Assembly (NCBI GenBank): GCA_009692845.1
Contig: SHYK01000004.1
Span: 62,001-126,000, forward strand
Direction: 5' to 3'
From: Chloroflexota bacterium
Lineage (GTDB): Bacteria; Chloroflexota; UBA6077; SHYK01
DNA length: 64,000 bases
A program made the translations under genes and the position numbers. Each line of letters begins with the position of its first letter. Position 1 is the first letter of the stretch. The notes beneath the pieces were generated by a model. It had not been told where the DNA came from. It saw only the letters and a list, made by a program, of their open reading frames with translations, and made no database searches. This document shows, in pieces, positions 22,991 through 24,916 of this stretch.

Positions 22991-23105
22991 AGAGTTAGCC
23001 TACCACGACGGCCCAGGCTATGCGACGCCCTTTCGCGTAGCTTGCATTGACATCCTCCGGCAAGAAAAGTATGTTCCTTGAATCTTTCCCGCGGAGGCAA
23101 AAGTC

Positions 23106-23489
23106 ATGGCGCGAGAACTAATCACATTTTTCTGGAAGCGCACCTGATCCACCTGCCGAGCAGCGAGGGAGGTTCTCTCGCAAGGTGGTGACATGCTCAA
23201 CGAGCGTGAGTTCTTCAAGGATCGCTTTACCGTCGATCAACTTCGGCAGATCCTCGGCGATCGGAAACCGAGCGAGATCTTCAACTGGAAATCAGTGTCC
23301 GCTCGAAAGATGGGGTTGGCTGCCCAGCGAGAAAAGCTGTCCGGGGACGAGGACGGGCTACTGCAGCTGATGGTCGAGGAGCCCAACCTGATCAAGCGGC
23401 CTCTTATCGTTGTCGGAGGCGAGCTAGTGGCCGGCTTCGATCGAGCCAGCAAGCCCCGCCTAACCGAGCTCCTGGGCCGAAACTTCTAG
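23106..23489 (+). CDS. ArsC/Spx-family thioredoxin-fold protein, predicted selenoprotein (TGA = Sec14)
   Basis: ATG 23106 has a GGAGG site (23093-23097) 8 bp upstream. The frame runs MARELITFFWKRT, then TGA (23145-23147), then STCRAAREVLSQGG and on without a break to TAG 23489. The TGA sits exactly at the first Cys of the family's CxxC motif, giving U-S-T-C. The rest is a full ArsC/Spx domain (SEIFNWKSVSARKMGL; LIKRPLIVVGGELVAGFD), 127 residues in all. A SECIS-like hairpin follows at once (see 23149-23188). These proteins act as thiol-dependent reductases or regulators; arsenate reduction itself is not shown. If TGA were a stop, only a 98-residue fragment from ATG 23193, lacking the redox motif, would be made. 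Confidence 0.7.
23149..23188 (+). promoter_or_regulatory. Putative bacterial SECIS element
   Basis: Inside the coding sequence, one base after the TGA. The outer stem is CCACCT (23149-23154) with AGGTGG (23183-23188). The inner stem is GCGAGGGA (23163-23170) with TCTCTCGC (23174-23181; one G-U pair), capped by a GGT loop at 23171-23173. The loop lies 23 nt after the TGA. Bacterial SECIS hairpins sit just downstream of UGA and carry a G at the start of a small apical loop (GGU in E. coli fdhF), which SelB recognises. Both stems are seen directly; SelB binding is inferred. Confidence 0.65.
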
Positions 23490-23523: not shown

Positions 23524-24916
23524 CTAACCGACGAACAAAGGCCGATTCAGGAGCAGATGCGCGCCGACACTTACGGCGTATCCCAGCCCGATCGCCCAGC
23601 TCCACCGAAGGTGCGCTCCGAATGTGTAGCTGCCGCGGGCCAAGCCCATAAGAGCCACCCCACCCGCGCTCCCTACTGACAATAGGGAGCCGCCAACTGC
23701 AGTAGTAAGCGTGACCAGCAGCCACTCGCCCTGGGACAAGCTCAGGCCTGCCGAGAGCACCGCAAACATCACCGGCACGTTGTCGACGATCGCCGACAGG
23801 ATGCCCACAACTATGCTGGCGGAAGTTGGCCCGAGGCCATCGTAGAAGACGGACGAAAAAACCCCGAGATACCCCAAAGCGTTCAAGCCGCCAACTGCCA
23901 TCACAATCCCGTAGAAAAACAAGAGGGTGTCCCATTCGATCTTCTCCATGAGCTCGAAAGTCCGGAGCGGCTTTGTATTAGCCGCACGCGCGACTGCTCC
24001 CCGAGCTGGACGGTCGGCATCGGGTCCGCCTTCGTCACTACCGAGCACGACGCTCAAGCCTTCCTCGAGCTCATCTACTTCTACGGGCACGGAGCCTCGG
24101 TTGAGAATGAAGCTGTAAAGCTTCAGAAGTCCGAGCCCAAACATCATTCCCAGGGCTGCGGGTAGGTGCAGAAAATTGTGGAGTGAAACGGTCAAGGCGA
24201 TGGTTCCTAGAAACAGCAGGATTACCCGGAAAGCCCCCGCTTCCAGCACCGCGGTCTCAGCGACTCCCTGCGGCCTCCCCTTCTCGACTGACCGGGAGAT
24301 GATCGCGGCCGGTACCAGCCAGTTCAGGAGCGACTGGACTAGCAGTGGAATGAAGCCGCTGAAGGACACCATCCCGCTCTGCCACACCATCAGTGTGGTG
24401 ACATCGCCGAAGGGGCTGAAGACGCCCCCCCGCGTTGGCGGCGACCACCACGTTGATACACGTGAGAGTGATGAAGCGCGGACGCCCTTCGCCGACAGCG
24501 ACAGCCACCGAACCGAGGACCAGGGCGGTGGTCAGGTTATCGGCGATGGGCGACATGAGGAAAGCCAGCCCGCCGCACACCCAGTACAGTGCTCGAAGTG
24601 ACAATCCGCGGTTGACCAGCCAGGCGCGTAGTGCGGTGAACACGCCCCGTTCACTCACGGTATTGACGTAGGTGAGCGCTACCAGGAGGAAAAGGAAGAG
24701 CTGAGCGTACTCGAGAAGGTTGTGCAAGGCCGCGTCGGAGGCCCCATGGAGGTCGCCGCCCCCCGCGTAAGAGATCGCTACGAGGACCCAGATAGTGCCC
24801 GCCGCAATCAGAACGGGAATCGACTTATGGAGCCCCAGCCTTCGCTCCCCAAAAACCGCAGCGTAGGCCATGACGAAGATCAACAGGGACGCGATTCCGG
24901 TCCAATGGCGAGTCAG
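23524..24916 (-). pseudogene. nhaD: NhaD-type Na+/H+ antiporter, one frameshift
   Basis: Two minus-strand frames together make one NhaD-type ion transporter with about 10-12 helices. The N-terminal frame (LIFVMAYAAVFGERRLGLHK to SPIADNLTTALVLGS, VVVAANAGG) breaks at a C7 run (plus 24425-24431). One C fewer would continue as GVFSPFGDVTTLMVWQSGMV in the second frame, the expected NhaD motif (NAGGAxSPxGDVTT). The second frame runs to 23524 (EKIEWDTLLFFYGIVMAVGG, SAIVDNVPVMFAVLS). No ATG precedes the first helix. TTG 24883 would cut it; CTG 24916 (LTRHWTGIASLL) would restore it. Either a real frameshift or a homopolymer error. Confidence 0.75.

Follow-up and report, generated by a model that had tools for sequence, protein, structure and literature searches.

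The question raised by this locus is whether a TGA codon that interrupts an otherwise intact gene terminates translation or is read as selenocysteine. The gene lies on the forward strand of a 64,000-nucleotide stretch of DNA (the window) from a Chloroflexota MAG of 1.88 Mb, in 10 contigs and 89% complete. A sequence-only reading had predicted a selenoprotein here, on the grounds that the gene has a good GGAGG site and an ATG, that its frame is intact around a single TGA with no other lesion, and that this TGA stands where the first Cys of a CxxC redox motif belongs, giving UxxC. All of these observations are borne out. The GGAGG site and the ATG at 23106 are read directly, the region forms a single coding frame of 127 residues that ends in TAG at 23487–23489, and the TGA of codon 14 is its sole internal stop. 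Translation with TGA as U gives MARELITFFWKRT-U-STC..., with the active-site motif USTC, in which the second Cys is the TGC of codon 17. Standard gene callers split or lose genes of this kind, and a simple open reading frame call leaves an apparent gap of 533 bases at this point in the window. The features of the locus are collected in Table 1.

Table 1. Predicted features of the selenoprotein locus, in window coordinates.
Feature	Position	Strand	Basis
Sigma-70-like promoter candidate, TTGACA-17-TATGTT	23047–23075	+	Consensus match only: 10/12; 1 found against 0.2 expected
GGAGG ribosome-binding site, 8 nt 5' of the ATG	23093–23097	+	Direct reading
Predicted selenoprotein gene, ArsC/Spx-fold UxxC protein	23106–23489	+	PF03960, AlphaFold2, Foldseek
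TGA, probable selenocysteine 14, first residue of U-S-T-C	23145–23147	+	Homologues: TGA at the same codon, remainder TGC/TGT
Possible outer pairing extending the SECIS	23150–23190	+	Present in minimum-energy fold, with alternatives
Cys17, second residue of UxxC, predicted resolving Cys	23154–23156	+	Invariant in family alignment
Predicted bacterial SECIS, 8-bp upper stem and GGU apical loop (23171–23173)	23163–23181	+	RNAfold, synonymous resampling, covariation

The genome encodes the machinery for selenocysteine insertion. A selA gene is found at 556 bits, selB at 370 bits (its C-terminal part lying within one frame of 658 residues) and selD at 369 bits, while a tRNA-Sec with a UCA anticodon scores 69.5 bits, well above its gathering score of 47, and is called tRNA-SeC(tca) by ARAGORN; SelB and tRNA-Sec, whose absence the sequence-only reading had named as grounds for giving up the prediction, are thus both in place. 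The selD gene (L019, at G000:C1:31437-32360) is itself predicted to encode a selenoprotein with an in-frame active-site TGA (SLSHCAGUAGKIG), its motif CAGUAGK being the UxxK form known for Sec-containing SelD. The selenocysteine trait looks very common in the phylum, with selA above cut-off in 320 of 400 Chloroflexota genomes.

Published constraints on bacterial SECIS elements specify a loop of 3-9 nt, a stem of 4-16 bp, a G in loop positions 1-2 and a spacing of 16-37 nt (PMC13188914). The hairpin in Table 1 lies within these limits, with a 3-nt loop that RNAfold places 23 nt downstream of the TGA. The upper stem and loop described from the letters are thereby reproduced, while the outer pairing described along with them is less certain because RNAfold shows two alternatives. 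As a single sequence, the fold is only modestly unusual compared to shuffles (z from -0.9 to -2.0); when the protein sequence is held fixed, a fold as low as that of the hairpin (-11.9 kcal/mol) is reached in 0.5% of 2000 synonymous resamplings. A scan of the gene against Rfam matched no RNA family.

The homologues bear on both the codon and the hairpin. In a first set of 31 distinct homologues from Chloroflexota, Acidobacteriota and Binatota, the Sec codon is TGA in 24 (a count that includes the window's own gene) and TGC or TGT in 7. Every homologue that could be aligned at this codon has either TGA or Cys there, so that relatives with neither, which the sequence-only reading had counted against itself, were not encountered. 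The nearest homologue (genome G004) is 68% identical and likewise carries TGA here, with protein conservation that spans the codon; its hairpin is identical to that of the window at 18/19 nt, against 81/134 nt further downstream. The hairpin is present in 24/24 of the TGA forms in the first set and weak or absent in 7/7 of the Cys forms. On a fixed 24-nt stretch positioned by the window's hairpin, the folding energies run from -6.7 to -12.4 kcal/mol for TGA forms and from 0 to -5.5 kcal/mol for Cys forms (U = 0, p = 8e-5, a value that, like the p-value for co-occurrence given below, is optimistic because the relatives are not independent). The separation is imperfect in a second set, from Chloroflexota: over the same 24 nt, two TGA forms (L064 and L073) form no strong hairpin, and two Cys forms (L060 and L063) reach -6.2 and -6.7.

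For a pattern scan, alignment A1 proved too divergent and was replaced by a closer one. Among 14 TGA forms the covariation of the stem pairs exceeds that in all 500 shuffles (0/500) and in all slid controls; these rows were chosen for sharing the window's stem register, so that the percentage of paired positions is biased upward, and the informative part of the covariation is the changes on both sides of a pair (AU/CG, AU/GC). The observation goes beyond chance, in that the hairpin beats synonymous resampling and homologues retain both it and the TGA.

The distribution of the two forms gives a further view of the gene. Sec and Cys forms are intermixed in the tree, whose well supported branches require a minimum of three changes. 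The Cys forms L024, L041, L042, L043, L048, L054 and L056, whose SECIS hairpins are decayed or present as remnants, make up a natural series of conversions from Sec to Cys; the remnant is still visible in L043, and similar remnants are on record from other cases in which Sec gave way to Cys (PMC1794560). Close Sec and Cys relatives with intact or decayed SECIS elements amount to a usable natural experiment on selenocysteine loss. The loci L029, L031 and L067-L099 (Chloroflexota family f24) have a hairpin in a different register, AAGGCCCGUGCGGCCUUG, directly 3' of the UxxC codons. The closest Cys form (TGC) comes from G001, a genome of the same family as that of the window, and neither selA nor tRNA-Sec was detected in this 80% complete MAG. 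If the TGA form is defined by a full-length match that scores 96 bits or more and contains one TGA, 38 of the 400 Chloroflexota genomes have it (the position of the TGA being confirmed at the Sec codon for the loci fetched, not for all 38), and selA is present in 38/38 of them, against the phylum-wide proportion given above (hypergeometric p = 1.3e-4, again optimistic). No relative of the gene was found in the viral contigs searched, and the plasmids searched yielded just two ArsC/Spx proteins, both of the Cys type and 25-32% identical.

Two accounts would dispense with selenocysteine. In the first, the TGA is a true stop, and the locus either is a pseudogene or encodes a 13-codon upstream peptide and, from the ATG at 23193, a protein of 98 residues. 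An open reading frame of that length does exist (23193-23489), and the window gene does come from a MAG, but TGA occupies the same codon in dozens of genomes from several phyla, protein conservation extends to either side of the codon and takes in beta-strand 1 of the fold, and the truncated product would be without its active site; this account is accordingly very improbable. The second, a sequencing or assembly error that conceals a TGC, TGT or TGG codon, can draw on one probable error elsewhere in the window, at a run of G in the adjacent NhaD gene, but is scarcely credible given that the independent assemblies of relatives show TGA at the same codon together with the hairpin. With the machinery, the SECIS element and the TGA/Cys pattern of the homologues all in its support, the selenoprotein prediction stands, and the TGA is very probably read as selenocysteine.

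The protein also belongs, as had been proposed, to the ArsC/Spx-like group. It passes the gathering cut-off of the Pfam ArsC model PF03960 (52.8 bits against 24), its AlphaFold2 model, built from an 18-row alignment, has a mean pLDDT of 92.4, and the best Foldseek matches of this model are Spx structures (3gfk/1z3e, E 5e-9), followed by YffB- and ArsC-type proteins. In the model, U14 lies between strand 1 (6-10) and helix 1 (15-26), which is the active-site placement expected for the ArsC/Spx fold. The best subfamily model in NCBIfam is TIGR01617 (Spx/MgsR), whose cut-off of 75 is not reached at 53.8 bits; TIGR01616 and the Spx models are also among the best and also fall below their cut-offs. 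Positions C14/U14, C17, R98 and P99 do not vary across the family alignment, and alignment with Spx, whose solved chain begins at position 2, pairs Cys10 with U14, Gly52 with K54, Arg60 with Lys62 and Arg92 with R98.

The full account of the gene, as encoding a 127-residue selenoprotein that acts as a thiol/selenol-disulfide oxidoreductase, is probably correct. From the signal and machinery seen in the sequence, SelB carrying Sec-tRNA(UCA) would bind the hairpin as the ribosome reaches the UGA, and selenocysteine would be inserted there instead of termination. The product would adopt the thioredoxin-like ArsC/Spx fold with the active site U14-S-T-C17. As fold and motif suggest, the selenolate at position 14 would attack a disulfide or oxidised substrate, Cys17 would resolve the mixed selenenylsulfide beside the invariant Arg98-Pro99, which would line the site, and re-reduction of the protein would fall to a thioredoxin or glutaredoxin system.

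As to its more specific role, that of a general UxxC thiol/selenol-disulfide reductase is the likeliest, to judge by fold and motif; it is preferred because the residue corresponding to Spx Gly52 is Lys54 and because the score falls far short of the arsenate-reductase equivalog cut-off. The protein could instead be a Sec-containing Spx-like redox regulator, in which a U14-C17 switch governs binding to the RNA polymerase alpha-CTD and steers stress transcription. The Spx structures and the TIGR01617 score lend this reading some support, as do the use of a CxxC switch by Spx (PMC2801614) and the correspondence of Arg98 to Arg92 of Spx. It is weakened because Gly52, which is essential for the alpha-CTD contact, is replaced by Lys54 and is not kept in the family; in addition, Arg60 of Spx aligns with a lysine and the Spx-type models stay below cut-off, so that a regulatory role appears unlikely. 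A broader proposal, in which a family of selenium-based Spx-like switches, widespread across Chloroflexota, Acidobacteriota and Binatota, uses a selenenylsulfide to sense redox state, affects transcription and has repeatedly converted from Sec to Cys with subsequent decay of the SECIS, is improbable.

Slightly less likely than the regulator is a selenium-dependent arsenate reductase of the ArsC type. The PF03960 match, the existence of UxxS ArsC selenoproteins and the similarity of ArsC structures to the predicted model (E 4e-5 or weaker in Foldseek) are consistent with this function, which is weakened by the score of 27.7 bits for TIGR00014 (arsC, arsenate reductase glutaredoxin equivalog) against a cut-off of 106, and by the lack of adjoining ars genes. 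An ars operon context was rejected: the flanking genes, both on the opposite strand, encode a trehalose-phosphate-synthase-like glycosyltransferase and an NhaD antiporter, so that the adjacent transporter is NhaD and not ArsB. The motif is moreover UxxC, whereas known Sec-containing ArsC is UxxS. No conserved neighbour pointing to a substrate was found, and the neighbourhoods of the relatives L034 and L036, read by eye, have no neighbour in common. The NhaD-type Na+/H+ antiporter gene (23524-24883, reverse strand) is itself split into two overlapping frames, covering positions 1-141 and 148-405 of NF038006, with the change of frame at seven consecutive G of the coding strand, near 24425-24431; the probable cause is either an error in this homopolymer or a frameshift of recent origin.

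The novelty of the protein must be judged against earlier reports. Sec-containing ArsC proteins of the UxxS type were reported in 2005 (PMC1088965), and the UxxC type in 2008 from Global Ocean Sampling, as Arsenate reductase 2 with domain cd03032, represented by 42 sequences from marine metagenome reads with no function given (PMC2398784). Among the families in a 2026 review is a UxxC arsenate reductase-like one with the model NF041106, ArsC_rel_Se_1 (PMC13188914), and a literature search for Sec-containing Spx found nothing relevant. The sequence-only reading had presented the gene as a rare and interesting Sec-containing ArsC/Spx-like reductase; the Sec reading and the fold hold, but novelty and name call for more restraint, since UxxC ArsC-like selenoproteins have been reported since 2008 and since neither Spx-type regulator nor arsenate reductase is an established name for the protein. 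The window protein is a further member of the published kind, in a clade beyond the reach of NF041106. Although MAGs of Chloroflexota, Acidobacteriota and Binatota commonly contain this clade, it escapes the NCBI model of ArsC-type selenoproteins, so that many genomes are probably mis-annotated.

Compared by description, Arsenate reductase 2 shares with the window protein an ArsC-family domain, Sec as the first residue of the CxxC motif, a bacterial SECIS and Cys homologues, while the window gene differs in lying in a Chloroflexota MAG with complete selenocysteine machinery. The NF041106 family has the same ArsC fold, UxxC motif and equivalent Sec position and a similar length, but the window protein scores 16.3 bits against its cut-off of 85, which is exceeded in 0/400 Chloroflexota genomes. 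ArsC1, the UxxS selenoprotein arsenate reductase, has PF03960 and a Sec nucleophile in common with the window protein, which differs in its UxxC motif and in its score far below the TIGR00014 cut-off. Spx and TIGR01617 proteins, which include the nearest solved structures, agree with it in fold, CxxC position and Arg-Pro motif; the window protein differs from them in having Sec for Cys10 and Lys54 for Gly52, and in its TIGR01617 score below cut-off.
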